Shown piece by piece: positions 13,893 through 37,618 of a stretch of DNA of 37,618 nt; position 1 is the stretch's first letter; every line of letters starts with the position of its first letter. This stretch comes from an uncultured Acetobacteraceae bacterium (GTDB lineage Bacteria; Pseudomonadota; Alphaproteobacteria; Acetobacterales; Acetobacteraceae). The notes under the pieces were generated by a model. That model was not told the DNA's origin. It worked only from the letters and a program-made list of their open reading frames with translations, and made no database searches. The stretch is from positions 1 to 37,618 of the forward strand of contig CALMVO010000019.1 of assembly GCA_937873205.1 (NCBI GenBank). The letters run 5' to 3'. The position numbers and the translations under genes are program-made.

Positions 13893-14429
13893 AGCCGGCT
13901 CGGTCGTCGTTCCAGAAAGTATTCCTATTCAATCGAACGGGCCCATCCGATCGGATGGTGCTCCAGCTGTTTGATCCCGGTGCATGGTGATGCCAGCCTA
14001 ATCCAGATCGCATCGGCCGTTTGAACCCGATCCTGCAGACACAGGCGCAGGCCTTCCAGAGCTTGAGCCTGCATGCATGATCGTATGTGTCCAGGAACGG
14101 TCCGAGGTGCACCTGGAGCTGCCGGTTGGTCGATCCTGAACTTTGCAGTGGGATCGGAGCGATAGCGCGACCGTGTCAGGGCGCGACGAGACGGTGCTCG
14201 GTCAACAGGATTTCGATCCTGCCAAGGCCCGGCGAGTGATGACCGTAGCTCCGAACGGCCATGTCGAGTTGGTGCCGATGCGGGCGATTGTCGCCGAGCT
14301 CCAGCGGGTCGCACCTGACATCAAGCTCCGATCGACGTGGCTCGGCACGTGCGCTGTCGGCACGATCCGGCTCATCGCCGGCTCAGGACGCTGATCGGGG
14401 AGGTGGCGGCGGAGCTGCCGGTCAGGCAG
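13893..14429. other. Intergenic stretch without a supported gene
   Basis: Holds a degenerate copy of the hairpin element (13918-13966) and then about 460 bp in which I see no recognisable gene. A plus-strand frame at 14143-14394 (83 codons from TTG) is open, but its G+C at third positions is clearly lower than in neighbouring genes and it matches no family I know. It may be decayed coding sequence. Confidence 0.5.
13918..13966 (+). repeat. Degenerate half copy of the 108-bp hairpin element
   Basis: 49 bases align without gaps to the second hairpin of the element at 14430-14537, with 12 differences that are nearly all transitions (AGTATT...CTCCAG against AGCATC...CTCTAG). The first hairpin and the spacer are absent. 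Same orientation as the full copy 460 bp away. Confidence 0.7.
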
Positions 14430-14537
14430 CTAGAGGATGATCCGATCGCTTAGGCTCACGGATCATCCTCTAGCTTGTTGTTTTGACGAGCATCGTTATC
14501 CGATCGAACGAGTCCGTTCGATCGGATGATGCTCTAG
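14430..14537 (+). repeat. 108-bp two-hairpin element, copy A
   Basis: Bounded by CTAG at both ends. Hairpin 1 has 15-bp perfect arms (CTAGAGGATGATCCG and its complement). A spacer CTTGTTGTTTTGACG follows. Hairpin 2 has arms around CGATCGAAC-GAGTCC-GTTCGATCG and ends GATGATGCTCTAG. The terminal CTAG contains the TAG stop of the minus-strand asparaginase gene (14534-14536). An inverted copy with two mismatches lies at 27547-27654. There is no ORF inside. It could act as a terminator between convergent units; its structure suggests a REP/MITE-like mobile repeat. Confidence 0.9.
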
Positions 14538-15529
14538 GGGAACGCCGTGCGGAGCTCGCCGACCAAGGTGCCGGCCCAGTTGCGGAGCATGGGCCGGCAG
14601 CGCGCCGACAGCTCCGGCGCCGCCGCCAGGGAGGGCGGCAGGTGGCGCGACAGCAGGGCGGCCATCGCCACCTCGGCGGCACGGGCGGCGCCATCGGCGC
14701 ACTTCACCGCGATGCCCAGCCCCTGCTCCGGCAGGGCCGCCACGTGCACGCCCTCGGCCCCCATCTTGACGAAGGCGGTGCGGCCCAGCGCCTGCATCAG
14801 CACGGTGTCGTAGCGGCCGGGGCCGGCGACCAGCGCCGGATGCGCCGCGACCGCGTCGCGAAGCCGGCGGGCGGACGCGGCGCGGTCGGGATGCAGGCCG
14901 GCGCCGCTGCCGAAGCGGGCGAAGCCGCGCGCCAGCGCCCGCAGCGGGATCGCGTGCGTGGGGATGCCGCAGCCGTCGATGGCGGCGGGGCAGCGGTCCA
15001 GCCGCACGCCGGTCATGTCGGCGACGGCGCCCAGGACCTGGCGCATGACCGGGTGCTCGGGCCGGACATAGCCGGCGAGGTCGAGGCCGGCGTCGCGGCC
15101 GAGGCAGACGAAGCCGGCATGCTTGCCCGAGCAGTTGTTGTGCAGCGCCGAGGGCGATCCGCCGGCGCGGATCAGCGCCTCCTGACCGTGGCGGCTGGTC
15201 GGCCAGTGCGCGCCGCATTCGAGGCAGCCGGCATCCTGGCCGGCCCGGCCCAGCATGGCGCCGGCGGTCTCCACATGAACCGGCTCGCCGCCATGCGAGG
15301 CGCAGGCCAGGGCGAGCTCGGGGGCGGTGAGGCCGAGGCGGTCGGCGGCGCCGGTCTCGACCAGCGGCAGCGCCAGCAGCGCCTTGATCGTGGAGCGGGT
15401 GAACACCGGCGCCTCGACGTCGCCGGCGGCGAACAGCACCCTGCCCTGCTCGTCCACCACCACGGCGCGGCCGAGATGGCGGGACTCGACGGCGCCACCG
15501 CGCAGCGCCTCAACCAGCGGCACGTCCAC
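14534..15529 (-). CDS. Asparaginase II family protein
   Basis: A 331-residue protein of the asparaginase II family (the thermolabile, Rhizobium etli AnsA type, unrelated in sequence to E. coli AnsA/AnsB), predicted to hydrolyse L-asparagine to aspartate and ammonia in the cytoplasm. Conserved blocks include VFTRSTIKALLALPLVE, ACASHGGEPVHVE, LHNNCSGKHAGFVCL and the Cys-Gly-Ile-Pro-Thr motif in DGCGIPTHAIPL. The start is the GTG at 15529 (VDVPLVEALRGG), which matches the family N-terminus and lies 14 bases after the upstream gene's stop. Longer readings run through that gene. The TAG stop is supplied by the terminal CTAG of hairpin element A. It probably shares a transcript with the Gln-rich gene. 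Confidence 0.88.
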   Translation of the reverse strand: MDVPLVEALRGGAVESRHLGRAVVVDEQGRVLFAAGDVEAPVFTRSTIKALLALPLVETGAADRLGLTAPELALACASHGGEPVHVETAGAMLGRAGQDAGCLECGAHWPTSRHGQEALIRAGGSPSALHNNCSGKHAGFVCLGRDAGLDLAGYVRPEHPVMRQVLGAVADMTGVRLDRCPAAIDGCGIPTHAIPLRALARGFARFGSGAGLHPDRAASARRLRDAVAAHPALVAGPGRYDTVLMQALGRTAFVKMGAEGVHVAALPEQGLGIAVKCADGAARAAEVAMAALLSRHLPPSLAAAPELSARCRPMLRNWAGTLVGELRTAFP

Positions 15530-15543
15530 CGCGCGGGACCGGG

Positions 15544-16029
15544 TCAGAAGATCTTGTTGATCAGGTCGTCGCCGATGCCGAAGCCGGCTCCCATTTCGAT
15601 GGCGCGGCCGAATCCGGAGTTGAGGAACCCGCCGAGCAGGCCGGTGCCGGTCTGCGGCGGCGGGTAGCCCTGGCCGGGCTGCACGGAGCCGGGCTGCGGC
15701 GCGCCCCATGGCTGCGGCTGGGCCGGCTGCTGTGGATATTGCTGGGGGGCGTAGGCGGGCTGCTGGTATTGCGCCTGGGCCTGGGCTTGCGCCTGGGCCT
15801 CGTTGGCGACGAAGCCGTGCAGCGACTGCAGCAGGGTGCCGACCTGGTCCTGCTCGGAGCGGAAGGCGAGTGCCAGCTCGCGCAGGTCGAGCAGCCACTC
15901 GCGCGCCTGCTGGTCGCCGGACTGCGCGGCGGCCTGCAGCTTGGAGCCCAGGGTCTGCAGCGCCTGGCCGGTCTGCTGCGACTGGCCCTGAAGCTGTTGG
16001 TACTGCTGGTCGATGGTCTGCACGTCCAT
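15544..16029 (-). CDS. Gln-rich protein of unknown function
   Basis: A 161-residue protein. Residues 1-70 are a Gln-rich helical segment (MDVQTIDQQYQQLQGQSQQT onward) likely to form a coiled coil. Residues 80-130 are a disordered Gln/Pro/Ala/Tyr-rich linker. Residues 135-161 are a Gly-rich amphipathic end, GLLGGFLNSGFGRAIEMGAG through GDDLINKIF. The ATG at 16029 follows AGGAG by 8 bases. There is no signal peptide. The arrangement resembles DUF2076-type proteins (helical N-part, Q/P linker, Gly-rich end), but I cannot match the core motifs. The asparaginase starts 14 bases downstream, so the two are probably co-transcribed. Confidence 0.75.
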   Translation of the reverse strand: MDVQTIDQQYQQLQGQSQQTGQALQTLGSKLQAAAQSGDQQAREWLLDLRELALAFRSEQDQVGTLLQSLHGFVANEAQAQAQAQAQYQQPAYAPQQYPQQPAQPQPWGAPQPGSVQPGQGYPPPQTGTGLLGGFLNSGFGRAIEMGAGFGIGDDLINKIF

Positions 16030-16120
16030 GGTGGCATCTCCTGCGGCGGGGCGTCGCCGCGAAGCTAGAGGTGCCGGCTGATGCACCGCAAGCCGTCCGC
16101 GTGCGGGGACCGAACGGGGG

Positions 16121-17287
16121 TTACGACGGATAGGAGTCCGCCGTTGCGGTGGCGGCGTGCCCCGGTTGGGGGGTCTGCCGGCGCGGCTTGAGTGCCAGCG
16201 CCCGACGCTCGACCAGATGCCAGGACAGCCAGGCCGCGGCGAGGGCCGGAAGAAGCGAGAGCGCGGCGACCTGCCACCAGCGGGCGCCGGCTCCAAGGGA
16301 TCGCACGGCGATCTGCTGGATGGGAAACGCCCAGATATAGACCCCGTAGGAGAGGTCGCCGATCCTGGGCATCGGATCCGGCAACCAGCGGGATTTATGC
16401 AGACCGAACGTCAGCAGGGTGTAGGTGCCGAGGATGCTGCCGACCAGGGTGAAGTGGCCCAGGCGGAGGCTGAGCAGGACGAGGCCCGCACAGGCCAGGG
16501 CCGCCCACCATCGCCGCGGCATCCCGCTGAGATACATCAGGGCGCCCATCGTGAACGGGATCGACAGCTCGACGGCGGGCCCGCCCTGCCCGCGATGCCG
16601 CGCCACGATCGCCAGCACGATCAGGCCCAGCAGGGCCGGCCAACGGAGCAATCCGATCAGGCCCAGGACCAGCACGCCCACGTAGAAGCCCGCCTCGTAG
16701 CGCAGTGTCCACAGCGCACCGTCGACCGACGGGAAGGGGTTCGTGTCGAACACGCCCGGCAGCGAATACTGGACCGGGAAGACGAGGGCGGCGTTGCCCA
16801 GGTAACGGTAGGGCAACGGATTCGAGAAATAGGACGCGGCGCCGGTCGTCGAGATCAGCGGTCCGACGACGAACGCCAGGAGAACGACCACGACGATCAG
16901 TCCGGGGAGCAGCCGCAACCCGCGGGCCAGGACGAACCGCCAGCGGGACGACGAGCAGACATAGCTCTGGGCGATCAGGAAGCCGCTGATCGCGAAGAAG
17001 GCGATGACGGCTAGGTGGCCGACGGTGGTCTGTCCATGGGAGGCGATGTAGAGCGGCTCGGTCCGGTCGCTGCCCGAGGTCAGCGGGAAGCAGTGGGACA
17101 GCAGCACCGCCAGCGCCGCGAACAGGCGGAGCGCGTTGAGGTTGTTGTCCGCCGATGCCCGTCTCGTCACGTGTGCCATCGTGGTCTGTTCAGCCGCCGT
17201 CGGAGCCGACCGGGTCGGCACGTGCCGCACTGGCATGTCCGCTGACGGAACGGCCTCGATGTCCGGCGGCGGCGCAGGCACGGACAT
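16121..17287 (-). CDS. Acyltransferase 3 family membrane protein
   Basis: A 388-residue inner-membrane O-acyltransferase of the OatA/OafA/NodX type, which transfers acyl groups to sugars of surface polysaccharides. The family start NNLNALRLFAALAVLLSHCFPL (about 48-69) carries the conserved Arg and His; FFAISGFLIAQSYV and LWTLRYEAGFY follow, with about ten hydrophobic segments. There is no C-terminal SGNH domain, so it is the short form. The ATG at 17287 lies three bases after the stop of the upstream peptidase gene and makes a 47-residue cytoplasmic tail; an ATG at 17179 (MAHVTRRASADN) fits the family better, and neither has a good ribosome site. The target polysaccharide is unknown. Confidence 0.85.
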   Translation of the reverse strand: MSVPAPPPDIEAVPSADMPVRHVPTRSAPTAAEQTTMAHVTRRASADNNLNALRLFAALAVLLSHCFPLTSGSDRTEPLYIASHGQTTVGHLAVIAFFAISGFLIAQSYVCSSSRWRFVLARGLRLLPGLIVVVVLLAFVVGPLISTTGAASYFSNPLPYRYLGNAALVFPVQYSLPGVFDTNPFPSVDGALWTLRYEAGFYVGVLVLGLIGLLRWPALLGLIVLAIVARHRGQGGPAVELSIPFTMGALMYLSGMPRRWWAALACAGLVLLSLRLGHFTLVGSILGTYTLLTFGLHKSRWLPDPMPRIGDLSYGVYIWAFPIQQIAVRSLGAGARWWQVAALSLLPALAAAWLSWHLVERRALALKPRRQTPQPGHAATATADSYPS

Positions 17288-17290
17288 CCC

Positions 17291-19408
17291 TCAATCGACC
17301 AGGCGGCGGGCGAGGTAGGTGGCCTCGAGGGCTTGCTCGTGGGCGATCTCGGCGAGGTTGGCGGTGCCGGCGTGGCCGCCCTCGGTGTCCTCGTAATAGA
17401 GGAAGGGGACGCCGAGCTGGGTGAGGCGCCAGGCGAAGCGGCGCGCGTGCACCGGGCCCACGCGGTCGTCCTTGGTCGAGGTGAAGATGAAGGGCTCGGG
17501 GTAGGCGACGCCGGGGCGCAGGTTCTGCAGCGGCGAGATGCTGCGCAGGAAGGCGGCCTCGGCGGGGACGCTCATGCTGCCGTACTCGTCCACCCAGGAG
17601 GCGCCGGCGGCCATGGTCTCGAAATGCTCCATGTCGAGCAGCGGCACGCCGATGATCGCCGCCCGCCACAGCTCCGGATGCTGGGTGAACTCGACCCCCA
17701 TCAGCAGGCCGCCGTTGGAGCGGCCGCGGATGCCCAGGCGCCGGGTGGAGGTGATGCCGCGCGCGATCAGGTCCCGGCCGACCGCGTCGAAGTCGTCGAA
17801 CACGCGCTGGCGATGCGTCTTGCGGCCGGCCTCGTGCCAGGCGGGACCGAATTCGCCGCCGCCGCGGATGTTGGCCAGAACGTAGACGCCGCCGCGCGCC
17901 AGCCAGAGCCGACCGATGGCGCCGGAGTAGAGCGGCGTCATGGACACGCCGAAGCCGCCATAGGCGGTGAGCTCGGTCGGGTTGCTGCCGTCGCGCTTCA
18001 GGTCGCGGCGATGCACGACGAAGTAGGGGATCCTGGTGCCGTCGTTCGAGGTGGCCTCGAGCTGCTCGACGACGAGGCCGCCGGCGTCGAACTGGGCGGG
18101 CAGCGCCTTCACCATCGCGGCGCTGCCCTGGGCGGCGTCGGTCAGCCAGAGCTGGCTGGGCGTGAGGAAGCCGGTGACCTGCAGGAAGGCGCGATCGCTG
18201 CGCGGGTCGGTGTCGACCAGGCTCACCGACACGTCGTCGGGCAGAGGCAGGCGGTGCGCGGTCCAGGTGCCGTTCAGGCCCGGGGCGAACGAGACCGCGC
18301 TGCCGCGCACGTTGTCGTAGATCGCGGCGACGATGCGGCTGCGGGTCACGCCGACCGCCTCGGCCTCCACCGACTGGCGCGGGCCGGGCGCGAACACCAG
18401 CTGCGGCGGGGCGTCGGGGTGCGCTGCATCCAGCGCGGCCAGGCTGCCGGACGGGACCCTCGGGCCCGTGGCGGGCTGCCAGGCCTGGTTCAGCTTGGCC
18501 ACCAGCCGGCCCTGCACCAGCCCGACCACGACGGTCTTGGGCGGCAGCGGCAGCGGCACCAGCCCGTGCGGGGTCACCTGCCGGTACTGGCTCTCGAAGA
18601 AGCTGACGGCGCGCTGGATCAGCGCCTCGCGATGGCCGTCGCCATCCACCATCACCTCCGGCGTGTCGGCGATGTCGGCGGCCATGCCGCGCGCCACCTC
18701 GCTGGCCTGGTCCAGCGTCTGGCCGCGCTGCAGGCGCTTGACGACGAACCCGTAGCCGGATGCGGTCATGGTGCCCGGGCCCCAGTCGCGAACGACCAGC
18801 AGCGTGTTCGGACCCTCCCAGGCTGTGGTCTGCTTGGAGTGCGGCAGCAGGAAGCCGCCCGGGACGAAGCTGGCATCGGGCAGGTCGAATTCGCGCGCGG
18901 TGGTGGCGTCCTCGCCGCCGTTGGAGAGCAGCAGCACGCAGCGGCGCTCGTCCGGCTCCTCGCAGTCGGCGCCCTTCCAGACCCAGTTCACGTGCTCGGC
19001 CGCGGACAGCGCGTCGAGGTCGAGCACCGTATGCCAGGCGGGCGTCGCGGTGCGATAGGAGGCGAGGTCGGTGCGGCGCCAGATGCCGTGGCGGTGCTGC
19101 GCGTCCTGCCAGAAGTTGTAGACCTGGTCACCCAGCACCATCGGCACCGGGATGCGGTCGGTGGATTGCGCGATCGCCAGCGCGTCGGCGGCGAAGCCCG
19201 CGTAGCGCGGGTCGTGTTCCAGCAGGCCGAAGGTGTGCGCGTTCTGCGCATGCACCCAATCCAGCGCCTGCGCGCCCTCGATGTCGGTGAGGAAGGCGGG
19301 CGGCGTCGCGGAGGCGGCCGTCGCGGGAGGCAGGGTCGCCGCCCGCACCGCCGCCGGGGCCGCCAGAAGGCATGACAGGGCGAGGAGCAGGGGGTAGTGC
19401 AGGCGCAT
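17291..19408 (-). CDS. Secreted prolyl oligopeptidase family (S9A) protein
   Basis: A 705-residue serine peptidase. Residues 1-23 are a signal peptide (LLLALSCLLAAPAAVRA). Residues 40-440 form the beta-propeller, and the C-terminal alpha/beta hydrolase domain starts near 445. The catalytic triad is Ser564 in GIRGRSNGGLLMG, Asp647/648 in TKDDRVGP and His679 in EGGHAGT. A conserved NIRGGGEFGPAWHEAG block precedes the Ser. Prolyl oligopeptidases cut short peptides after Pro; export places this one in the periplasm or outside. It heads a minus-strand unit with the acyltransferase (3-base gap). The facing aminotransferase gene starts only about 60 bases away on the other strand, so they share an upstream region. 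Confidence 0.9.
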   Translation of the reverse strand: MRLHYPLLLALSCLLAAPAAVRAATLPPATAASATPPAFLTDIEGAQALDWVHAQNAHTFGLLEHDPRYAGFAADALAIAQSTDRIPVPMVLGDQVYNFWQDAQHRHGIWRRTDLASYRTATPAWHTVLDLDALSAAEHVNWVWKGADCEEPDERRCVLLLSNGGEDATTAREFDLPDASFVPGGFLLPHSKQTTAWEGPNTLLVVRDWGPGTMTASGYGFVVKRLQRGQTLDQASEVARGMAADIADTPEVMVDGDGHREALIQRAVSFFESQYRQVTPHGLVPLPLPPKTVVVGLVQGRLVAKLNQAWQPATGPRVPSGSLAALDAAHPDAPPQLVFAPGPRQSVEAEAVGVTRSRIVAAIYDNVRGSAVSFAPGLNGTWTAHRLPLPDDVSVSLVDTDPRSDRAFLQVTGFLTPSQLWLTDAAQGSAAMVKALPAQFDAGGLVVEQLEATSNDGTRIPYFVVHRRDLKRDGSNPTELTAYGGFGVSMTPLYSGAIGRLWLARGGVYVLANIRGGGEFGPAWHEAGRKTHRQRVFDDFDAVGRDLIARGITSTRRLGIRGRSNGGLLMGVEFTQHPELWRAAIIGVPLLDMEHFETMAAGASWVDEYGSMSVPAEAAFLRSISPLQNLRPGVAYPEPFIFTSTKDDRVGPVHARRFAWRLTQLGVPFLYYEDTEGGHAGTANLAEIAHEQALEATYLARRLVD

Positions 19409-19471
19409 GGAGTCTCCGGGGCAGAGGCGCGTATCGGAGACGATGCGGGCCGGCGATACAAGGTCGGACCG

Positions 19472-20671
19472 GTGACGGGCGCCCTGCCCTTATCCGAGCC
19501 CCATCACGACACGCTGGCGCGGGCCGAGATCGAAGCGTTGCCGGGCTCGCTGATCCGGGCGGTGGCGCAGGAGGGGCTGGGGCGGGCGGACGTGATCCCG
19601 CTCTGGTTCGGCGAGCCCGACGGCGTGACGCCGGACTTCATCCGCGAGGCGGCGAAGCGGTCGCTGGATGCCGGGCAGACCTTCTACACGTCGAACCACG
19701 GCATCCCGGCGCTGCGGAACGCGATCGCGACCTATCAGGCGGGGCTGGGGCGGAAGTCTGGCGCTGGCCGGGTGTGCGTCACGCCGTCGGGGGTGAACGC
19801 GATCCTGCTCGCCTGTCAGGCGCTGTTGTCGCCGGGCGACCGGGTGGTGCTGCCGACGCCGCACTGGCCGAACCTGGCCGGCATCGCCGCAGTCGCCGGC
19901 GCCACGGTGGCGACCGTGAGGCTGCGGCTCCTGGACGGGCGCTGGCGCATCGGGCTGGACGAGCTGCTGGCGGCGCTGACGCCGGACACGCGGATGGTGA
20001 TGCTGAACGCGCCGGCCAATCCGACCGGGTGGATGCTGACGGCGCCAGAGCAGGCGGTGCTGCTGGCGCATTGCCGGCGGCACGGGATCTGGATCCTGGC
20101 CGACGACGTCTATGAGCGCATCGTGTTCACGGGCCGCGTGGCGCCGGGGTTCCTGGAGATCACGGAACCGGAGGACCGGGTGCTGTCGGTCAACTCGTTC
20201 TCGAAGGGCTGGGCGATGACCGGCTGGCGGCTCGGCTGGATCACCGCCCCGGAGGCGCTGATGCCGGCGCTCGGCAAGATGATGGAGTTCAACACCTCCT
20301 GCGCGCCGGAATTCGTGCAGCGGGCGGGGATCGCGGCGCTGGAGCAGGGCGAGGCGGTCGTCGCGGCGACGGTGGCGCGCTACCGCGCCTGCCGGGACCT
20401 GGCGGCCCAGCTGCTGGGGGCGCTGCCCGGCGTGCGCGTGCCATATCCGGAGGGGGCGATGTACGCGTTCCTCTCGGTCGAGGGCTGCACCGACAGCCTG
20501 GCGCTGGCCCGCGCGCTGCTGCGCGAGGCGGGCGTGGGGCTGGCGCCGGGACGCGCGTTCGGGCCGGCGGGGGAAGGCTGCCTGCGGCTGTGCTTCGCGG
20601 TGGAGGAGGCGACGCTGCGGGAGGCGTGCGGACGGATCGCGAGGTTCCTGGCGGGGTGGCGGGAGCCGTGA
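19472..20671 (+). CDS. Class I/II PLP-dependent aminotransferase
   Basis: A 399-residue fold-type I aminotransferase that moves an amino group between an amino acid and a 2-oxo acid. The PLP-binding Lys245 lies in SVNSFSKGWAMTGWRLGW. The cofactor-contacting NAPANPTGW and the DDVYERIVF Asp-x-x-Tyr motif are present, with the substrate carboxylate Arg in CLRLCFA near the C-terminus. The GTG at 19472 (VTGALPLSEPHHD) was chosen because the ATG at 19397 would run back into the divergent peptidase gene. Substrate specificity (aspartate, aromatic or other) cannot be assigned from sequence. It stands alone: the gene downstream is on the other strand. Confidence 0.87.
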   Translation: MTGALPLSEPHHDTLARAEIEALPGSLIRAVAQEGLGRADVIPLWFGEPDGVTPDFIREAAKRSLDAGQTFYTSNHGIPALRNAIATYQAGLGRKSGAGRVCVTPSGVNAILLACQALLSPGDRVVLPTPHWPNLAGIAAVAGATVATVRLRLLDGRWRIGLDELLAALTPDTRMVMLNAPANPTGWMLTAPEQAVLLAHCRRHGIWILADDVYERIVFTGRVAPGFLEITEPEDRVLSVNSFSKGWAMTGWRLGWITAPEALMPALGKMMEFNTSCAPEFVQRAGIAALEQGEAVVAATVARYRACRDLAAQLLGALPGVRVPYPEGAMYAFLSVEGCTDSLALARALLREAGVGLAPGRAFGPAGEGCLRLCFAVEEATLREACGRIARFLAGWREP

Positions 20672-20939
20672 GGCGATCCGGCATGCCGGTCTCTGTCCTG
20701 GACGATCCATCGACGGTGCGGGCAGCGAGGGACAGGCGACCGTTCCGTTGTCGATGCGGGCCGCGCTGCATCTGCAGGCAGACGACGATCGAAGATCTGC
20801 GATCCGGTGCGGGCTTGCCGATGCCTATCGGCCGCCGGTGGTGCGACCGCCAGCAGCCGGATCCGGTCGTCGGCCGGGTTATGTCTTGGGGTGGAGCGGT
20901 TCGTGCTTGATCGTGGCCGATAACGTCGGCGCGACGCGT

Positions 20940-21623
20940 TTAGACGCGGAGAGAATAGCCGAGCGGCACCGGGTCCGCCCCGGCGACGATCGTGCTCCCG
21001 CCGGGAGGGACCTCGAAGATGCGTTCGAGGCCGTCCCAGTTGCCCTGCCGCGGCGGGTGATCGCGCGGATGGAGAAGATCGAATTCCTCCAGGAGGAAAT
21101 TGCCGCGGCCGTAGTTGCAGGCCGCGCACGTCAGATAGACGTTCTCGAGCTCGCTGCTGCCGCCGCGTGCATGCGGCAGGACATGATCGTATTGCGCCCA
21201 CATGAGCTGGAACGCCGCGTGCTGGGTCGCATTCGTGTCGCCCCAGGGGATCGCATCGGGGTAGTCCCTGCGGAGGGCAGCCCGGACTTCGCCCCTGATC
21301 ACCGGGATCTTGCAGAACCGGCAGTAGTGGCCGTCCCGCAGATGGATGAGACGTCTCGTCGCCTTGGTCGCCGCCCGCGGCATCGCTCGCCGCTCCCTCG
21401 GCAGGGCCGCAGGGTGAAGCAGCGTGCGGCAGGGACGGTTGTAAATGGTCTGCTTGCCCCAGACGGAGTCGAGCCAGTCCCATAGGATGCGGCTGTCGGT
21501 CGCCCGGAACAGCGCCTCGGCTACGCTGTGCTCGCCGCGGCAATGAGCGGCCGCGGCGTCTTCAAGCTGCCGGGCGGCGGCCTCGATTTCGGGGATCGGT
21601 CCGCGGAGACATGTGCGGCGCAA
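20940..21623 (-). CDS. HNH endonuclease
   Basis: A 227-residue HNH nuclease. The zinc-binding Cys pairs are C101-x2-C104 (YCRFCKIPV) and C166-x2-C169 (LTCAACNYGRGN). The catalytic block is YDHVLPHARGGSSELEN with Asp146-His147, His151 and Asn161, then Asn170. This is the McrA/HNH_5-like family seen in restriction, phage and stand-alone nucleases. The N-terminal 80 residues carry no recognised domain. The start is a TTG at 21623 just after an in-frame stop; no better start gives a full protein. No methyltransferase, terminase or immunity gene is adjacent, so its role is open. Confidence 0.82.
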   Translation of the reverse strand: MRRTCLRGPIPEIEAAARQLEDAAAAHCRGEHSVAEALFRATDSRILWDWLDSVWGKQTIYNRPCRTLLHPAALPRERRAMPRAATKATRRLIHLRDGHYCRFCKIPVIRGEVRAALRRDYPDAIPWGDTNATQHAAFQLMWAQYDHVLPHARGGSSELENVYLTCAACNYGRGNFLLEEFDLLHPRDHPPRQGNWDGLERIFEVPPGGSTIVAGADPVPLGYSLRV

Positions 21624-21770
21624 GTCTGGACGTCCGTTCTACTCCGCCCCGTCGGCGGTATCCTGCAGATGCTATCGCCATGGCCATGACCATTTCGTAA
21701 ACGCGCGCCGCACCCGGCTACTTGGCTCCCCGCCCGCGCAGGGACGATCTCGTCAACGCGGAGCTCCGCT

Positions 21771-23177
21771 TCAGCGTCGGGTCATCCCGGTCCCGTGGCG
21801 CGGGAGGCGGGCGAGATCGGACCTGATCCGGGCGATCGGCTCGGCCCAATCGCCCGGTTCGGGCTGCACGTAGAGGCGCATGTCGGAATACCAGGGCGTG
21901 TCGGTGCGGCCGGTCAGCCAGCGCCAGCAGCGGTCGTAGCGCGACAGCAGCCACACCGGCTTGCCGAGCCCGCCGGCCAGGTGCGCCGTCGAGGTGTCGA
22001 CCGCGATGACCAGGTCCAGTCCCGTCACCAGGCAGGCGGTGTCGTCGAAACTGTGGATCAGGCCGGTATGGTCGATGATCGGCAGCCCGTGCTCCGGCGG
22101 CAGCGCGGTCTCGCCGATCTGCAGGCTGTAGAACAGCGTGTCGGGACGCGCGTCGAGCAGCGGCTCCAGCTTTGCGAGATCGAGCGAGCGCCGGCGATCC
22201 GTGAGGGTGCACAGCCGGTTCCAGGGCCGAGGCGCCCCCGCCCAGACCAGTCCGACCCGCAGCGGGTCGACGCGGCCATGTCGGACGGCATCCTTCTCCA
22301 ACCGGTCGCGCCAGACAGCGACCCCGCCGGGATCCGGCGTCAGGTAGCCGGCCGGCGAGGGGATCGCGTCGATCGTGACGTTCAACGCCAAAGCGAGGCT
22401 CATGATCGGGCAGACCAGGTCGTAGGCCGGGAGCGGCGCGTCCATGGTCACGACCGCGTCCACGCCATCCAGTCGCGACAACAGCCCGGCCAGCGTCGGC
22501 CAGGTCCGCACGACCACGCGTCCGCCCCGTGCCCTGGCCAAGGGCAGGAAACGGGCGAACTGCAGCACGTCGCCGATCCCGGCCTCGACCAGGACCAGGA
22601 GGGTGCGGCCGGCGAAGGACTCGCCGGACCAGCGCGGCCCCTCGACCCACCTCGCGGTGTCGACCTCGAAACGGGCCTCGAAGGCGGGCCACCCGGCCGG
22701 ATAGTCGCCGGCGGCCAGCAAGGCGACCGCGCGGTTGAACCGGGTGTGGGGATTTCCCGGATCGAGCGACAGAGCGAGCTCGTGGAACCTCAACGCCTCG
22801 ATCGGCGCGCCGCGCCGATGCAGGGCCACGCCGAGTGCCGACAGCGTGCCGACATGCGCCGGCCGCAGGCGCAGCGCGTTGGAGAACGCCGCGATCGCGT
22901 CGCCGAGACGCTGCAGCTCCAGCATGGCGATCCCGAGGTTGAGCCAGAGGGCGGGCCGCCCGGGATCGAGCTCGACCGCGCGCGTCAGAGTCGCGGCGGC
23001 CTCTTCGAACCGGCACAGCTCGATCAGCAGGCCGCCGTAATTGCCGATCGTGCGGGCCTCGGCCGGGGCACAGGCGAAGGCCGCCTCGTAGGCGAAGGCC
23101 GCCTCGACGTAGCGTCGCGCCTGGACCGCCCGCTCCGCTGTCGCGATCGCTTCATGCTGGAAACCGGCCTGAGCCAC
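21771..23177 (-). CDS. TPR protein with glycosyltransferase-like C-terminal domain
   Basis: A 468-residue protein. About three to four TPR repeats span residues 30-155 (WLNLGIAMLELQRLGDAIAAF and similar units), followed by a glycosyltransferase family 9-like C-terminal region (about 185-460). That region has a first Rossmann part (LLVLVEAGIGDVLQFARFLPL), RVGLVWAGAP, and the nucleotide-sugar-facing LDLVIAVDTSTAHLAGGLGK. Proteins with this layout are common in Alphaproteobacteria, often in expanded sets; they are presumed to glycosylate proteins or polysaccharides, but this is unproven for most. The GTG at 23177 follows GGAAGG with 5 bases between. There is no signal peptide. It stands alone between the HNH and GNAT genes on the same strand. 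Confidence 0.85.
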   Translation of the reverse strand: MAQAGFQHEAIATAERAVQARRYVEAAFAYEAAFACAPAEARTIGNYGGLLIELCRFEEAAATLTRAVELDPGRPALWLNLGIAMLELQRLGDAIAAFSNALRLRPAHVGTLSALGVALHRRGAPIEALRFHELALSLDPGNPHTRFNRAVALLAAGDYPAGWPAFEARFEVDTARWVEGPRWSGESFAGRTLLVLVEAGIGDVLQFARFLPLARARGGRVVVRTWPTLAGLLSRLDGVDAVVTMDAPLPAYDLVCPIMSLALALNVTIDAIPSPAGYLTPDPGGVAVWRDRLEKDAVRHGRVDPLRVGLVWAGAPRPWNRLCTLTDRRRSLDLAKLEPLLDARPDTLFYSLQIGETALPPEHGLPIIDHTGLIHSFDDTACLVTGLDLVIAVDTSTAHLAGGLGKPVWLLSRYDRCWRWLTGRTDTPWYSDMRLYVQPEPGDWAEPIARIRSDLARLPRHGTGMTRR

Positions 23178-23266
23178 GCGAACCTTCCCCGGATGCCGAG
23201 CCCTCCGGAGCAGTATCGGGCACGGTCGTTAAGGAAGGGTTCCAGCCGGATCTCTTGGCGCCGGTC

Positions 23267-23713
23267 CTACGCCTTCTTGCGCAGCGCCCTCTCGTGGCGC
23301 CCGCCCGCGGGGACGAAGCCGGTGGCCAGGCAGAAGGCGTGCAGGATCGGATCGGGTTCCGTCAGCATCTCCAGGCTGCCGCAGCCGGCGGTGCGGGCGG
23401 CCTGGGAGGCGGCCTTGACGAGCAGGCGGGCCAGGCCGCGGCGGCGGTCGTCCTTGGCGACGAACAGGGCGGTGACCTGCGCCACCGGCTGCGGCCGGTG
23501 CAGCGGGCGGTACCAGTGCAGCTGCACCAGGCCGTTCGGCGGGCCCCATTCCAGGGCCAGCAGGGTGGTGCCGGACTCTTGGCGCAAATCGTCCAGGCGA
23601 TCGGCCAGCATGCGCGGCGGGACCGGATGGCCGGCCAAGGCCAGCAGGTCGGAAAGGCCCGGGGCGTCGGCAGGGGTGGCGGCGCGGATTTCCAGGCCGT
23701 GGCGGCTGCCCAT
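23267..23713 (-). CDS. GNAT family N-acetyltransferase
   Basis: A 148-residue acyl-CoA-dependent N-acetyltransferase. The acetyl-CoA loop is KDDRRRGLARLLVKAA (about 82-97), preceded by the beta-4 strand AQVTALFVA and followed by the FCLATGFVPAG motif with the usual Gly-Phe. The ATG at 23713 (MGSRHGLEIRAATPADAPG) follows AAGGGA and starts exactly at the family's first strand; the in-frame ATG at 23800 adds unrelated residues and runs close to the divergent peptidase gene. The substrate is unknown. It reads away from the S10 peptidase, with about 100 bp of shared upstream DNA. Confidence 0.85.
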   Translation of the reverse strand: MGSRHGLEIRAATPADAPGLSDLLALAGHPVPPRMLADRLDDLRQESGTTLLALEWGPPNGLVQLHWYRPLHRPQPVAQVTALFVAKDDRRRGLARLLVKAASQAARTAGCGSLEMLTEPDPILHAFCLATGFVPAGGRHERALRKKA

Positions 23714-23811
23714 CACGATTTTCCCTTGCCGGAACTCGGCCGTCCGCACATTGCGGCCGGTGGCGCGCTCCGCTCTACTCCCGCGCATCCCGACACCCAA
23801 GGAGCCCCGAG

Positions 23812-25539
23812 TTGCCGCTGCACCGTGCCCGCCTGCTGCTGAGCGCCGCCTGCCTGACTGCCCCCTTTGCGCTGCCGTTCGCCTTGTCGTTCACCCTGGC
23901 GCCTGCCTTGGCGCTCGCCCTGGCGCCCGCCGCTTGGGCGGCGGACGGACCGCATGGCAAACTGGCGGCCGCCAAGCCCGACCTGCACGACGACGCCGTC
24001 ACCACCGACGGCACCGTGACGGTGGGCGGCGCGCCGATCGCCTACCAGGCGGTGGCCGGTACGCTGGTGGTGCACCCGAAGGGTTGGGACGACGCCAAGG
24101 ACAACGACGAGCCGTCGGAGGCCGCTGGCGAGCCGGGCCAGCTGCCGGGCACCAAGAGCGAGGATGCCGGCGGGCACGACAAGGAGGCGGAAGCCAGGAT
24201 GTCGTACTTTGCCTACTTCAAGCATGGCGCGGCTTCCGCCAGCCGGCCGATCACCTTCGTCTATAATGGCGGGCCGGGCTCGTCGACGATCTGGCTGCAC
24301 ATGGGGGCGTTCGGGCCGCGCCGCGTGGTCACGGCGGACGATACCGTGACGCAGGGGCCGCCGTTCCACACCGTCAACAACGACGACAGCCTGCTGGACG
24401 CGACGGACCTCGTCTTCATCGATGCGCCCGGCACCGGGTTCGGCCGCCTCGCCGGCAAGGACAAGGAGAAGTCGTTCTGGGGCACCGACCAGGACGCTTA
24501 CGCCTTCTCGCAGTTCATCGTCGGCTTCCTGACCAAGTACTCCCGCTGGGGCTCGCCCAAGTATCTATTTGGGGAGAGCTACGGCACCACGCGCTCGGCG
24601 GTACTGTCGAACCTGCTGGAGGAGGACGAGGCGGTCGGCCTGAACGGCGTCATCCTGCTGTCGCAGATCCTGGACTATGCGAACAGCATCGACTCGCCCA
24701 AGGACACGCCCGGCGACGACCTGCCCTACGTGCTGGGCCTGCCGAGCTACGCCGCGGTCGCCTGGTATCACCACGCGCTGCCGGGTACTCCTCCCACCGA
24801 CCTGCCCGGCTTCCTGGCCGAGGTGCGGCACTTCGCCAGCACCGACTACATGCTGGCGCTGGCGCAGGGCGCCGCGCTGCCCGATGCCACCCGCGACGCC
24901 ATCGCGGACAAGCTGCACCAGTATACCGGGCTTTCCGTCGCCTACCTGAAGAAGGCGGACCTGCGCGTAGCCGGCGGCGAGTTCGCGCACGAGCTGCTGT
25001 CCGACACCGACACCAGCACCGGCCGGCTCGACGCGCGCTTCTCGGGGCCGAGCATGGATCCGCTCGATCGCGCGGCGCAGTACGATCCGGTCGATGCCGG
25101 CATCGACGCCGCCTACGTCGCGGCCTTCAACGACTACGCCCGCACCGTGCTGCACTATGGCGGCGACCGGAAGTACAGGACCGAGATCGACGTGTTCAAG
25201 GACTGGGACTTCAAGCACCAGGCGCCGGGCGAGGACGAGCCGCTGCCGGGCTTCCCGGACGTGATGGCGGACCTGGCGGCGGCGATGAAGTACAACCCGA
25301 CGCTGAAGGTGCAGCTGAACGCCGGCTACTTCGACCTCGGCACGCCGTTCTACGAGGGCATCTACGAGATGCAGCACCTGCCGATGCCCGCACGCCTGCA
25401 GGCCAACATCGAGTATCACCAGTATGCGTCGGGCCACATGGTGTACGTGCACGTACCCGTCTTGCGGCAGCTGCACGACAACGTGGCGGCCTTCATCCGC
25501 AGGACGGACGATCAGGCGGCGGCCGCTCCGGCGCATTGA
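23812..25539 (+). CDS. Secreted serine carboxypeptidase-like (S10) protein
   Basis: A 575-residue S10-family peptidase that would remove C-terminal residues from peptides in the periplasm or outside the cell. The signal peptide is unusually long (1-43, ending AWA-ADG). FVYNGGPGSS forms the oxyanion region. The triad is Ser256 (FGESYGTTR), Asp508 (AGYFDLGTP) and His542 (ASGHMVYV). The start is a TTG at 23812, well supported by AAGGAG 7 bases upstream; no ATG precedes the signal peptide. Residues 96-130 are an acidic, probably disordered insert after the first strands. It is the second of three secreted serine peptidases in this window. Confidence 0.9.
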   Translation: MPLHRARLLLSAACLTAPFALPFALSFTLAPALALALAPAAWAADGPHGKLAAAKPDLHDDAVTTDGTVTVGGAPIAYQAVAGTLVVHPKGWDDAKDNDEPSEAAGEPGQLPGTKSEDAGGHDKEAEARMSYFAYFKHGAASASRPITFVYNGGPGSSTIWLHMGAFGPRRVVTADDTVTQGPPFHTVNNDDSLLDATDLVFIDAPGTGFGRLAGKDKEKSFWGTDQDAYAFSQFIVGFLTKYSRWGSPKYLFGESYGTTRSAVLSNLLEEDEAVGLNGVILLSQILDYANSIDSPKDTPGDDLPYVLGLPSYAAVAWYHHALPGTPPTDLPGFLAEVRHFASTDYMLALAQGAALPDATRDAIADKLHQYTGLSVAYLKKADLRVAGGEFAHELLSDTDTSTGRLDARFSGPSMDPLDRAAQYDPVDAGIDAAYVAAFNDYARTVLHYGGDRKYRTEIDVFKDWDFKHQAPGEDEPLPGFPDVMADLAAAMKYNPTLKVQLNAGYFDLGTPFYEGIYEMQHLPMPARLQANIEYHQYASGHMVYVHVPVLRQLHDNVAAFIRRTDDQAAAAPAH

Positions 25540-25566
25540 TGGCGGCGCGGCCTGGCCGGCGTGCGC

Positions 25567-25962
25567 CTACTCGTGGATGCCGCCGACCAGGTCGAGCGAC
25601 GGGTGCGGTCCGGCCAGATGCGATCCGGTGTCGACGTTCTGGTCGCGGTTGAAGGCCTTGATCGCGGCGTCGGCATTCGGCCGGATGGTGAAGGGAACGT
25701 TGGAGGCCAGGGCCGCGCTCTGAAGCTCGGCGTCGCCGGTGAGGTCCGGCAGCCTGGTCTTGCAGATGGCGACGGCGCGGTAGAACGGCACGCCGGACTC
25801 CACCACCTGATGCCGGAAGCAGGGGATGTCGCGCCCCTGGTCGGCGGACAGTCGTTGCCACGTCGTCGTCTTGGCGCAGGAGGTCGTGACGGTGAGGAAC
25901 GCCAGCGCCAGAAGGCCGCAGCCCGGGCCCGGCCTGCCCGATGATCCGGTGGACGAGAACAT
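25567..25962 (-). CDS. Putative lipoprotein, function unknown
   Basis: A 131-residue protein with a lipoprotein-type leader: hydrophobic GLLALAFLTVTTSC with Cys at about residue 29. The -1 to -3 residues (T-T-S) are acceptable but not ideal for signal peptidase II. The mature part has two further Cys (IPCFRHQ and AICKTRLPD) that could form a disulfide in the periplasm. The ATG at 25962 follows AAGGATAGG. It converges with the S10 peptidase gene across a 27-base gap. No family recognised. Confidence 0.72.
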   Translation of the reverse strand: MFSSTGSSGRPGPGCGLLALAFLTVTTSCAKTTTWQRLSADQGRDIPCFRHQVVESGVPFYRAVAICKTRLPDLTGDAELQSAALASNVPFTIRPNADAAIKAFNRDQNVDTGSHLAGPHPSLDLVGGIHE

Positions 25963-26049
25963 GGTCCTATCCTTCTGGTTGGCGCCCGATCCTTTGCTTG
26001 GCGACCGGTGCGGTCAAGTCGATCGTGACGCGTCAACGCCGACTGTGTC

Positions 26050-26982
26050 ATGACGCCACCGGAGGACACGTCCCGGCCGGCGCTGCCGCTGTTCCTGGAT
26101 CTCGAAGGGCGGCTGGCGTTCCTGCTGGGTGACGGCGAGGCGGCGAAGCGGCGTCTGGCGACGCTGCGGGCGTGCGGGGCGGCGGTGCGGCACGAGGCGG
26201 CGCGATTCGTGCCCAACATGCTGGACGGGTGCTGCATCGCCATCGGCGCCGAGGCGCCGGACGCGGCGCTGGTGGCGATGACGGACGAGGCGCGACGGCG
26301 CGGCATCCCGTACAACGTGGTCGATCGGCCGGCGCTGTCGGGGTTCTCGACGCCCGCGGTGGTGTCGCGGGCGCCGCTGCAGATCGCGATCTCGTCCGGG
26401 GGTGCGGCGCCGGTGCTGTCGCGGCTGCTGCGGGCGCGGATCGAGAGCCTGGTGCCGCCGGCATTCGGGCGGCTGGCCCGGCTGGCGGGCGCAATGCAGC
26501 CGGAGACCCGTGCCCGTCTGCCCGACGTGCTGCGGCGGCGGCGCATGCTGGAGGCGGCCCTCGGCGGCCGGGTGGCCGAGCTGATGCTGGAGGGGCAGGA
26601 CGAGGCGGCGGAGGCGGCCTATCGCGCGGCGCTACTGGCGGCGGAGGCGGGGGCCGAGCGGCCGGAGCGGGGGATCGTGTATCTGGTCGATCGCGGGCCG
26701 GGGGCGCCGGACCTGGTCACGCTGCGGACGCTGCGGCTGCTGGGCGAGGCCGACGTGATCGTGCACGGCGCGGACGAGCCGGCGGCGATCCTCGAGCTGG
26801 CCCGCCGCGACGCCTCCCGGCTGGTGGTGACGCCGGGCGAGGCGGTGGCGCGGCTGGCGGCGCTGGCGGCGGGCGGCGCGAAGTTGGTGCGGCTGTCGCC
26901 GGGGCCGGACGAGGGAGCGGCGCTGCGGGCGGGCGGTCACCTCTGCGTGGACGTGCCCGGGGTGCCGCGGGCGGCGGATTGA
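26050..26982 (+). CDS. Siroheme synthase, dehydrogenase/chelatase half with truncated methyltransferase half
   Basis: A 310-residue CysG-like protein. Residues 10-205 match the N-terminal precorrin-2 dehydrogenase/sirohydrochlorin ferrochelatase half of CysG: the NAD-binding loop [32 protein letters not shown] and the [16 protein letters not shown] block. From residue 208 the sequence starts the uroporphyrinogen-III methyltransferase domain ([18 protein letters not shown]), but only about 100 residues follow, where a full domain has about 240. The later SAM-binding motif (GGDPFxFGR-like) is absent, and the first loop reads DRGPG instead of GAGPG. So the last steps of siroheme formation are plausible but the methylation steps are not. 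No stop or frameshift is seen, so this looks like stable reduction, not recent damage. MoaB follows closely. Confidence 0.83.
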
Positions 26983-27013
26983 CGGGGGTGGCGTGGCGCG
27001 GTTGATGTCGGGC

Positions 27014-27550
27014 ATGTCCCGTCTCGATCTCAGCCGCCCGTTCCTGCCCGTCCGCATCGCGGTGCTGACCGTGTCGGACAGCCGCACGGCGGCCAGCGAC
27101 ACCTCCGGCGACATCCTGGCCGGGCGCGTGGCGGCGGCCGGGCATGTGCTGGCCGACCGGGCCCTCGTGCCGGACGATGCGGACGTGATCGTCGAGCGGC
27201 TGCGCGTCTGGACCCTCGACCCGGAGGTTGACGTGGTGGTCAGCACCGGCGGGACCGGCGTCACGGGGCGCGACGTGACTCCGGAGGCCTTCGACCGCGT
27301 GGTCGAGAAGCGGATCGAGGGGTTCGGCGAGCTGTTCCGGATGCTGAGCTACGCGAAGATCGGCACGTCGACGATCCAGTCGCGGGCGCTGGCCGGGGTC
27401 GCGAACGGCACCTACCTGTTCGCGCTGCCGGGCAGCACCGGGGCGGTGCGCGACGGGTGGGACGACATCCTGGTCTGGCAGCTCGACAGCCGGCACGCGC
27501 CCTGCAACTTCGTCGAGCTGATGCCGCGGCTGCGGGAGCACATGCGCTAG
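27014..27550 (+). CDS. moaB: Molybdenum cofactor biosynthesis protein MoaB
   Basis: A 178-residue MoaB/MogA-type protein, which adenylylates molybdopterin before molybdate insertion. The fold-defining motifs are present: [19 protein letters not shown] at the N-terminus, [19 protein letters not shown] (nucleotide and pterin binding) and [15 protein letters not shown] near the end. The [16 protein letters not shown] start at 27014 matches the family; in-frame GTG at 26993 and ATG at 27005 are alternatives and none has a clean ribosome site. It follows the siroheme gene by about 30 bases, so co-transcription is likely. Its TAG stop (27548-27550) lies inside hairpin element B. Confidence 0.88.
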
Positions 27551-27654
27551 AGCATCATCCGATCGAACGGACTCGTTCGATCGAATAAAGATGCTCGTCA
27601 AAACAACAAGCTAGAGGATGATCCGTGAGCCTAAGCGATCGGATCATCCTCTAG
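27547..27654 (-). repeat. 108-bp two-hairpin element, copy B (inverted relative to A)
   Basis: The reverse complement of this segment matches 14430-14537 over all 108 bases with only two differences, both in the outer arm of hairpin 2. It begins with CTAG, which contains the TAG stop of moaB, and ends with CTAG next to the convergent membrane-protein gene. As in copy A, hairpin 2 is the gene-proximal end. Confidence 0.92.
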
Positions 27655-27662
27655 CCACGCCG

Positions 27663-29135
27663 TCAGCCCTGCGCGCCGCCGCAGCGGATCGATGCACAGG
27701 ACAGCCTGGAACGTGGTCCGCCGATGAGGCTCGTGCGGACGAAGACGATGGCGGTGCCGTCGGCATGCTGGCGCCGCCAGCCGAGCATCGCGTCGAACCT
27801 GGCGATCAGGGGGTCCTGCACGGCCAGGACGGCCCAGCCGATGCCGTAGCGGTCGACGGCTTGGCGCAGCCGATCGTCATCCAGTCCCGGCAGGTCCAGG
27901 AAATCGTGCAGGAAGGCGTCGCCGAACAGTTCGGCGCGCCCGTCGATGAACGGCCGCAGGCCAACGAACGCCAGGTAGCCGCCGAACTGGTAGCTGTTGA
28001 GGACGGGCGTGCGGGCGATGTCGGGAGCGAGCTGCGCGATCGCCGAGACCGGGGCGTCGAGGCTGTCGGCGCTGGCGATCGGATGCGCCAGCCGGAGTGC
28101 GACCGCGAGCGCCAGGCCCGACCAGCATGCCGCCCGACCGCGGGGTCGCGACCCGTTCGGGACCGACGCCGCGAAGGCTCGGCCGACCGGGCCGGCCAGG
28201 ATCAGCGGTGCCGCGACGCCGAACAGGAGCCCGTGCCGCCGGTGGGCGATCGACAGATAGAGCAACCCCACCAGGAGCAGAAGCCGGAGCGGCGGCACCC
28301 TGACCCGGCCGGTGCCGAGCAGTGCTACCAGCGCCAGCAGGACGATCTCGAAGGCGATGTCGGTCGAGAAGTCCATCGGCTGCCACTCGGAAATGGCTGC
28401 CAGGTTGTGCAGCCGCAGCAGGCGGAGGGGGAACAGCAGGCCGTTCAGCCCCTGCGGCGTGAGGCAGGCCGCGACGGCCGCCCCGGTCAGGAAGATCCAC
28501 CAGGACCGGACACTCCGGTCGGGGCGGGGACGCTCCAGCGTCGCCTCGACGGCCAGCGGCAGCGCGATGGCGAGTCCGGCCGCGAAGCCGCCGTGCATGT
28601 TGGCCCAGACCGCCATGACCGGCAGCAGCCGCCAGGAGGGCGCCCGCCGCTCGTGACGGGCGAGCAGCAGTCCGGCGACCCATGTTTCGAGCAGGGGCAG
28701 GGCCAGGATGTGGGGACGGGCGAGGATGTTGGGCAGGATGCAGGCCAGGGCGGCGGCGGTGAGGAGCAGCGTCTCCGTCCAGCCGCTCCAGCGGGCGATG
28801 TGGCGGGCCAGGTTGGCGATGGCGATCGCCGTGGCCGCCGCGGCGAGGAGCACGACGCCGGTCAGTCCCGCCAGCCGGTCGGCGACGGCCAGGAGCACCT
28901 CGGACAGCCACTCGTGGGCGTCCCAGGGGCGGCCGGCGAAGGTCCAGCTGAAGGGGTCCCGTGCCAACACCGCGTGGTGTTCGATCATCCAGGCGCCGGC
29001 GGCGATGTGGGTATAGGTGTCGCCGTCGTTCAGCACGTCGCGCAGGACGCAGACGAGCACCGCGGTCAGGAGCGCGAACAGGGCGGGCAGGCAGACGTGG
29101 CTCGGCGCCGCGTCCTGTGGGGTCCGGGAGGGCAT
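27663..29135 (-). CDS. Polytopic membrane protein, GT-C-like
   Basis: A 490-residue protein with about ten hydrophobic segments, a large first periplasmic loop (residues 35-85) and a soluble C-terminal part (about 365-490). The first loop carries acidic residues typical of GT-C glycosyltransferases (LNDGDTYTHIAAGAWMIEHH, then WTFAGRPWDAHEWLSE). The C-terminal part contains LNSYQFGGYLAFVGLRPFID and DGRAELFGD. Such proteins are usually annotated as hypothetical membrane or PMT-like proteins acting on lipid-linked sugars; activity here is inferred from topology only. The ATG at 29135 has a weak ribosome site. It is convergent with moaB across hairpin element B, 9 bases from the stop. Confidence 0.75.
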   Translation of the reverse strand: MPSRTPQDAAPSHVCLPALFALLTAVLVCVLRDVLNDGDTYTHIAAGAWMIEHHAVLARDPFSWTFAGRPWDAHEWLSEVLLAVADRLAGLTGVVLLAAAATAIAIANLARHIARWSGWTETLLLTAAALACILPNILARPHILALPLLETWVAGLLLARHERRAPSWRLLPVMAVWANMHGGFAAGLAIALPLAVEATLERPRPDRSVRSWWIFLTGAAVAACLTPQGLNGLLFPLRLLRLHNLAAISEWQPMDFSTDIAFEIVLLALVALLGTGRVRVPPLRLLLLVGLLYLSIAHRRHGLLFGVAAPLILAGPVGRAFAASVPNGSRPRGRAACWSGLALAVALRLAHPIASADSLDAPVSAIAQLAPDIARTPVLNSYQFGGYLAFVGLRPFIDGRAELFGDAFLHDFLDLPGLDDDRLRQAVDRYGIGWAVLAVQDPLIARFDAMLGWRRQHADGTAIVFVRTSLIGGPRSRLSCASIRCGGAQG

Positions 29136-37527: not shown

Positions 37528-37546
37528 CCAAAGGCGGAGCCTTTGG
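37528..37546 (+). terminator. Hairpin CCAAAGG-CGGAG-CCTTTGG
   Basis: A 7-bp perfect stem with a 5-base loop directly after hairpin repeat copy 3 and running into the large palindrome. It lies just after the ABC transporter stop, so it may help end transcription. There is no T-run, so the terminator label is tentative. Confidence 0.4.
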
Positions 37547-37618
37547 AAACCTCTACTTAAATAACGGGATCCAAGGGCCGCGACCCTTGGATCCCGTTAT
37601 TTAAGTAGAGGTTTCCAA
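37543..37618. repeat. 76-bp perfect palindrome at the right edge
   Basis: Left arm 37543-37577 and right arm 37584-37618 are perfectly complementary over 35 bp, around the 6-base centre CCGCGA. The right arm ends on the final base of the window. The arms are AT-richer than the surroundings (ACTTAAATAACGGGATCC within). It may be a third part of the hairpin-repeat unit, a strong bidirectional terminator, or a fold-back at a contig end. Confidence 0.9.

Follow-up and report, generated by a model that had tools for sequence, protein, structure and literature searches.

A dispersed two-hairpin repeat bounded by CTAG is frequently found at the stop codons of genes in an Acetobacteraceae genome

Here we analysed a stretch of 37,618 nt (hereafter the window; contig CALMVO010000019.1 of assembly GCA_937873205.1) from an Acetobacteraceae bacterium whose genome, of 3.73 Mb in 155 contigs, we denote G000, and we examined a 108-bp element that occurs twice in the window and that follows the plan CTAG, hairpin 1, CTAG, T-rich spacer, hairpin 2, CTAG. 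Copy A (14430..14537, plus strand), delimited by sequence comparison and by its membership of a genome-wide family, consists of hairpin 1 (14430..14473), a palindrome running from CTAG to CTAG that is seen in the fold and in an alignment in which positions 1-15 pair with 41-55, the spacer CTTGTTGTTTTGAC (14474..14487) and hairpin 2 (14488..14534), whose 5' arm contains an asymmetric internal loop according to both fold and alignment. Copy B (27547..27654) lies on the minus strand, with hairpin 1 at 27611..27654, the T-rich spacer at 27597..27610 and hairpin 2 at 27550..27596, assigned from sequence and, for the hairpins, fold. The original prediction, which had described the two copies as near-identical, bounded by CTAG and composed of two hairpins around a T-rich spacer, was confirmed on these points, copy A and the reverse complement of copy B differing at 2 of 108 positions and the predicted fold energies being -60.4 and -57.3 kcal/mol for A and B, respectively. 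The outer CTAG of each copy also supplies, as had been proposed, the in-frame TAG stop of a gene identified from its open reading frame (ORF) and Pfam match: at copy A the stop (14534..14536, minus strand) of an asparaginase II gene (14534..15898, minus strand; PF06089, E = 4.7e-110), and at copy B the stop (27548..27550, plus strand) of a moaB-type gene (MoCF_biosynth; 26993..27550, plus strand; PF00994, E = 1.6e-29). A convergent or near-convergent setting had also been claimed for both copies: after copy B comes an opposing ORF (27663-29135) that has no Pfam match, so that convergence there is unproved, and the gene to the left of copy A, encoding a formate/nitrite transporter, ends about 540 bp away.

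The element is not restricted to these two loci. A pattern requiring both ends identified 80 copies in G000 and the end motif alone gave 201 matches, the reversed control yielding none in either case. A hidden Markov model (HMM) census of 430 kb, comprising the window and 20 stretches of large contigs and thus not a random sample, recovered 21 copies, including one that is internally deleted and one broken off at a contig start, and in addition one truncated and one degenerate copy; extrapolation from the 21 suggests a total of about 180 copies in G000. As a pair that might let the 13-kb segment between them flip, as had been suggested, A and B are nothing special, because copies occur about once per 20 kb in this sample. 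Copies also cross contig edges, several G000 contigs starting or ending within one. Among 64 aligned copies of 107-108 bp, 13 were equal to the consensus and 53 lay within 4 substitutions of it, seven showed 8-12 differences, and four rows with 27-46 differences are probably copies with insertions or deletions that were compared gap-free. These values fit a burst of recent copying, and the recent spread predicted earlier from copies A and B therefore extends to the family. The high identity of distant copies would also be expected if they were old, fixed repeats held alike by gene conversion with no recent movement. We consider that explanation extremely improbable, since gene conversion, put forward earlier as another possible source of the identity, would as a sole cause leave unexplained the clean empty sites found in congeneric genomes (see below), and since, among the matches listed, those of full length in relatives share 71-86% identity with copy A, against 96-100% within G000 (40 of 156 candidates scored).

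Two further features of the family were considered and rejected. Apparent solo copies of hairpin 1, which came from the motif scan, turned out to be copies of the element whose 3' end is mutated or truncated, and an excess of substitutions in the hairpin 1 loop and spacer relative to the hairpin 1 arms, seen in 53 young copies, did not recur in the 430-kb sample, whose 13 young copies showed 0 changes in 182 spacer positions. Four head-to-tail arrays (five adjacent pairs) have a period of about 104 bp and one shared CTAG, with the same orientation within each pair (L018, 1397-1608; L021, 1396-1608; L080, 1500-1655; L089, 1500-1815). In one copy (L142, 17311-17393) the loop and the 3' arm belonging to hairpin 1 are gone and the CTAG is kept at both ends, so that this copy is possibly a natural test of the need for hairpin 1.

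For ten sites the empty join was reconstructed and sought in the congeneric genomes G001-G005, and clean junctions were obtained at two of them. The first, L079, is the ffh stop, where the element-free sequences read CTAG in G002, CTAT in G003 and CTAA in G004, each giving a TAG stop on the gene strand (G001 and G005 are gapped at the junction); the second, L004, lies within an ORF which, in the element-free G004 (two loci) and G001, has CTGG there and reads through. Because of these clean empty sites in relatives, the copies are to be seen as insertions of 104 bp net at CTAG, and both sites are compatible with duplication of either TA or CTAG. At L078 the match is mainly on the gene side, and the stop is found at the same codon in G001 (TAA) and in G003, G004 and G005 (TGA), the match of G002 ending just before it. 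A stop at that codon thus exists without the element at both L079 and L078. Searches against G001-G005 returned no junction at five of the ten sites, namely copy A (L002), L011, L014, L081 and L096.

Matches to the element were present in 10 of the 40 genomes searched, its own included, that is, in 9 of 39 relatives. G002 had 25 matches, G004 26, G022 16 and each of the others seven or fewer, counts in which some copies appear twice, through an additional partial match on the opposite strand; the copies of G002 have a common sequence of their own. A scan of genome contigs with a core made of the spacer and hairpin 2 gave at least 64 stretches, and those listed come from records titled Acetobacteraceae, Rhodospirillales, Nguyenibacter, Gluconacetobacter, Acetobacter, Asaia, Acidomonas, Roseococcus and Neoroseomonas, the named genera being presumably all members of the Acetobacteraceae. 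The exact core was found in 14 of 299 genomes of the family, with G000 at the top (67 matches) and the next genome having 17. Judged by their sequences, then, diverged relatives of the same design are found in the genus and in other Acetobacteraceae. Between lineages hairpin 1 varies, and hairpin 2 and the spacer vary less, a picture favoured by the choice of loci through the spacer and hairpin 2 core. In one metagenome-assembled Acetobacteraceae genome (L261, 7415-7497) a second spacer and hairpin 2 unit stands head to tail with a copy without a hairpin 1 of its own, and therefore this half of the element may be able to duplicate alone.

Residence at stop codons proved to be a property of the family as well. 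With the 430-kb sample as training set for a codon model, and after reducing 84 distinct rows to 59 copies by dropping partial copies, array members and copies with less than 240 bp of flank, we placed 41 copies at a stop, 15 in intergenic DNA and 3 in a gene. The corresponding numbers for 128 unoccupied CTAGs were 29, 66 and 33, so that placement is far from random with respect to genes (odds 7.8; P = 1.5e-9), and the residence at CTAG/stop sites first noticed at A and B is upheld. The excess was also significant against those CTAGs called intergenic (odds 6.2; P = 6e-7), although these may hide gene DNA missed by the codon model, which would shrink it. An earlier and cruder classifier had placed 37 of 66 copies and 28 of 147 CTAGs at stops. 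In 43 flanks an ORF entered the element, and 39 of these ORFs ended in frame at the outer TAG, with two ending in each of the other frames. The observation was replicated in G002, where all 11 classified copies were at stops (15 elements found, 12 with both ends, one of them with a short flank), and in G004, where three of four were (14 found, 4 with both ends). Pfam examination of 20 chosen ORFs from the 41 found a domain in 17; in 14, among them a TonB receptor, HemN, YajC, a histidine kinase, an ammonium transporter, G6PD and SRP54, the last domain was complete to its end, and the ends of these 14 proteins look natural and untruncated. We found no account, in the open-licence literature, of this element or of insertion into stop codons by such repeats.

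A function at gene ends, as a transcription terminator or a stabiliser of the 3' end of the RNA, would place selection rather than target choice behind the excess at stops, and it agrees with the persistence of this excess against intergenic CTAGs, with the stability and conserved pairing of the hairpins and with the order of hairpin 1 followed by CTTGTTGTTTT, which resembles a terminator in one orientation. The genes, however, are found on either side of the element: hairpin 2 faces the gene at 25 of the copies at stops and hairpin 1 at 16 (P = 0.21), and only when hairpin 1 faces the gene does a U-rich run follow the stem on the transcript strand. The arrangement in which hairpin 2 faces the gene is true of copies A and B but is not supported as a rule of the family, and the terminator role once proposed gains no support from orientation. 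Intergenic copies (15 of 59) and copies inside ORFs (3 of 59) also argue against such a function, as does the search of the region 13800-14700 of the window against Rfam, which gave six matches, all far below the gathering scores of their families. We regard this explanation as unlikely.

The two hairpins are maintained between lineages. In an alignment of 12 sequences (A1) tested against a structure written from copy A, which favours that structure over its slid controls, the proposed pairs were formed in 95.0% of 404 cells, compared with 28-37% in those controls. Changes on both sides of a pair affected 11 of 34 pairs (35 cells), a result reached by none of 500 shuffles, and 6 of the 15 pairs of hairpin 1 were among them; the invariance of the outer stem of hairpin 2 is partly due to the search core. 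Hairpin pairing hence appears to be kept by paired changes across lineages, which selection on the hairpin and arm-to-arm correction of the palindrome predict alike. The terminal inverted repeats, CTAGAGGATGATCCGATCG and CTAGAGCATCATCCGATCG, are alike at 17 of 19 positions, and the agreement is shorter in other lineages.

Examination of the outer bases and of the target showed that CTAG is scarce, with 191 occurrences (copies of the element included) in the 430-kb sample against 505 expected from the counts of CTA, TAG and TA. The left outer base was C in 130 of 134 copies and T or A in the rest, and the right outer base was G in 123, A in 14 and T in 3 of 140; compared base by base, they would fit a target that resembles YTAR and is centred on TA. 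The strictness of the left base and the looseness of the right one are also what one would expect of a hairpin-recognising enzyme (HUH-like, working on single strands or cruciforms), for which the left CTAG would be the target and the right CTAG would belong to the element, with no target duplication, and which would account for arms of hairpin 1 that co-vary (6 of 15 pairs) alongside element ends that may differ from each other. We think it improbable that such an enzyme moves the element: co-changing arms could also result from arm-to-arm correction of a quasi-palindrome, and no match to the Y1 transposase family PF01797 was found in G000, G002, G004 or G022, other HUH families not having been searched.

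The same family bears on the partnership with a REP-associated transposase (RAYT) raised by the original prediction. A REPIN-type element moved by a RAYT would, like the element studied here, be short, palindromic, present in high copy number and mostly outside genes, with two hairpins per unit. PF01797, nevertheless, was without match in 10 of 11 genomes, including the four just named, and its matches were confined to G023, which has one partial match to the element (controls gave a signal in 5 of 14 in this search). The ends differ too, with CTAG on both sides here instead of the GTAG and CGTC tags of the families treated in PMC3733652, in which CGTC repeats are stated to be missing in Acetobacteraceae. 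Movement by a RAYT is accordingly very unlikely, and the suggested partner was not found in G000.

Transposases of the IS5 type offer a more promising candidate mover. Matches to the DDE families PF13586 and PF01609 were present in all seven genomes searched, and G002 had two and three matches to them, respectively, of which one and two contain an internal stop; DDE_3 had no match in G002. The ends of some of the IS5-type insertion sequences (ISs) of these genomes read TAGAGGGTGTTATG, TTAGAGCCCGTTTG and CTAGGCTCAGGAC, some beginning with TAGAG or sitting at CTAG, and because of these ends ISs and element seem to agree in target and partly in their outermost bases, while their inner bases differ. 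At one locus of G000 (L160, in the region C63:35498-35740) an IS5-type element of about 837 bp with CTAGGCTCAGGAC ends has CTAG on both sides, and at L027 an end of this type adjoins a copy of the hairpin element at a common CTAG.

Comparison with known systems helps to classify the element. As in miniature inverted-repeat transposable elements (MITEs), it is short, has no gene of its own (108 bp being too short for a transposase), has many near-identical dispersed copies and carries terminal inverted repeats; an autonomous partner with the same ends, a further mark of such elements, was absent from 82 transposase loci that we fetched. The single motif match among these loci (L282) was rejected, for its spacing of 42 bp is that of hairpin 1, and it resembles a copy of the element at a contig start. 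The ISs described above, which we take to belong to the IS427-type group of the IS5 family, resemble the element in the use of TA, CTAG or YTAR and, in some, in TAGAG ends, and they differ from it in their length of about 840 bp, their transposase and the inner sequence of their ends.

A repeat known from rhizobia matched 368 plasmid records when used as a query, and three Rhizobium plasmid copies (L301-L303) have a plan like that of our element: CTAG, hairpin 1, CTAA, AT-rich spacer, hairpin 2, CTAG. In L301 and L302, though not in the shorter L303, the 5' arm of the second hairpin has an asymmetric internal loop. No sequence match between the Rhizobium repeat and the element was found beyond the TAGAGCAT-type ends, and a blastn search of copy A against plasmids returned one Acidiphilium record and none from Rhizobium. 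In the Acidiphilium plasmid (L304, about 543-650) a two-hairpin copy starts about 64 bp downstream of an IS200/IS605 tnpA. We take the Rhizobium repeat, from its looks, to be the RIME (Rhizobium-specific intergenic mosaic element), a repeat of like size with two palindromes. The features of the RIME and Bru-RS type, a length of about 100-120 bp, two large palindromes and a mostly intergenic location, are all found in the element. RIMEs are named among annotated intergenic repeats in a passage of PMC2573895, and Bru-RS1 and Bru-RS2 are given in part of PMC2267715 as palindromic repeats of 103-105 bp of class 'I', read here as intergenic. In Brucella, according to PMC3163539 and PMC2266754, IS711 (842 bp) is linked with the Bru-RS palindromes and generates a TA duplication at YTAR, and by analogy it would serve as a precedent for the target. 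Compared by description only, Bru-RS and our element are similar in length, palindromic and linked to an IS that duplicates TA at YTAR, with the difference that Bru-RS is described as a place of insertion of IS711 and not as moved by it. We would therefore file the element as a new family within the known two-palindrome, MITE-like repeats of Alphaproteobacteria.

Taking these results together, we consider the element to be probably a non-autonomous, MITE-like two-palindrome repeat of the RIME/Bru-RS kind that inserts at CTAG and is perhaps moved in trans by an IS5/IS427-like transposase targeting TA in YTAR. Insertion into CTAG would then duplicate the central TA of the YTAR target, and the element proper would run from GAG to CTC. 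YTAR is also the reading of a codon ending in Y followed by TAA or TAG; as CTAG is scarce in this GC-rich genome, stops would therefore form a large share of the available targets. With a G at both ends of the element, TA plus G would rebuild the TAG stop in place whichever way the element points, and would so leave the protein encoded upstream unchanged; copies at stops could therefore persist, presumably by neutrality, while copies inside genes are rare. A bolder view, which we hold only tentatively and think rather unlikely, is that the machinery actively prefers stops beyond what the supply of CTAGs and the loss of harmful insertions would give, the GAG ends being an adaptation for rebuilding the stop and the enzyme perhaps an undescribed one that reads hairpins; on this view the mobile element would use the translation stops of ordinary genes as a safe harbour.

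Several observations weigh against the preferred explanation of a transposase-moved MITE. Deviant outer bases are unevenly distributed (4 of 134 on the left, 17 of 140 on the right; P = 0.005), which is not expected from a symmetric transposase, and the account based on YTAR and TA explains neither this asymmetry nor the excess over intergenic CTAGs, itself subject to the possible shrinkage noted above. In several lineages the agreement between the two ends of the element is limited to TAGAG(C) and a few further bases, while the arms of each hairpin stay complementary, a combination that is unusual for a MITE of a DDE transposase and that would fit an enzyme reading hairpins. The end motif of the element was on no IS in the 82 fetched loci (some of them overlapping), which are part of the matches to PF13586, PF01609 and PF13358, the three families searched, and an inverted-repeat scan of the PF13586 and PF01609 loci revealed no autonomous IS with the ends of the element. 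The excess at stops was weaker in G022 (3 of 8 classified copies; 11 found) and in a mixed set of named genomes (10 of 29; 71 found), the codon model having been trained on G000 and some loci of the mixed set coming from the same genomes as G002, G004 and G022. Concerning the empty sites, the junction of L015, obtained from one relative (G004), departs from the TA model by one base, the moaB stop at copy B has the same position in G001 but not in G002, G004 or G005, and a family-wide search for empty sites of copies with a deviant right base listed none spanning a junction.

The family is a concrete and countable example of a mobile element residing on stop codons and leaving the protein as it was. 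Double hairpins ending in TAGAG are found in Acetobacteraceae and also, differing in sequence, in Rhizobium, and the papers cited leave their mover and their effect at gene ends unsettled; residence at stop codons can now be tested in RIME and Bru-RS. G000 is well suited to a search for the mover, since it has both young copies and several genes for IS5-type transposases.

Other repeats were seen in the window. A degenerate relative of the part of the element made up of the spacer and hairpin 2 lies at 13901..13965 on the plus strand (nhmmer E = 2.1e-6), and had partly been seen as repeat D5. The contig ends in a near-perfect palindrome of 76 bp (37543-37618; 38-bp arms, 97%), which may stem from fold-back in the assembly or mark where a different hairpin repeat ends; the other loci compared did not contain its first 24 bases. 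Finally, a CGCGGCAGCGGGGCCGGCTCCGCG-type tandem repeat is present at 3266-3343 in three copies with a spacing of 24 bp.

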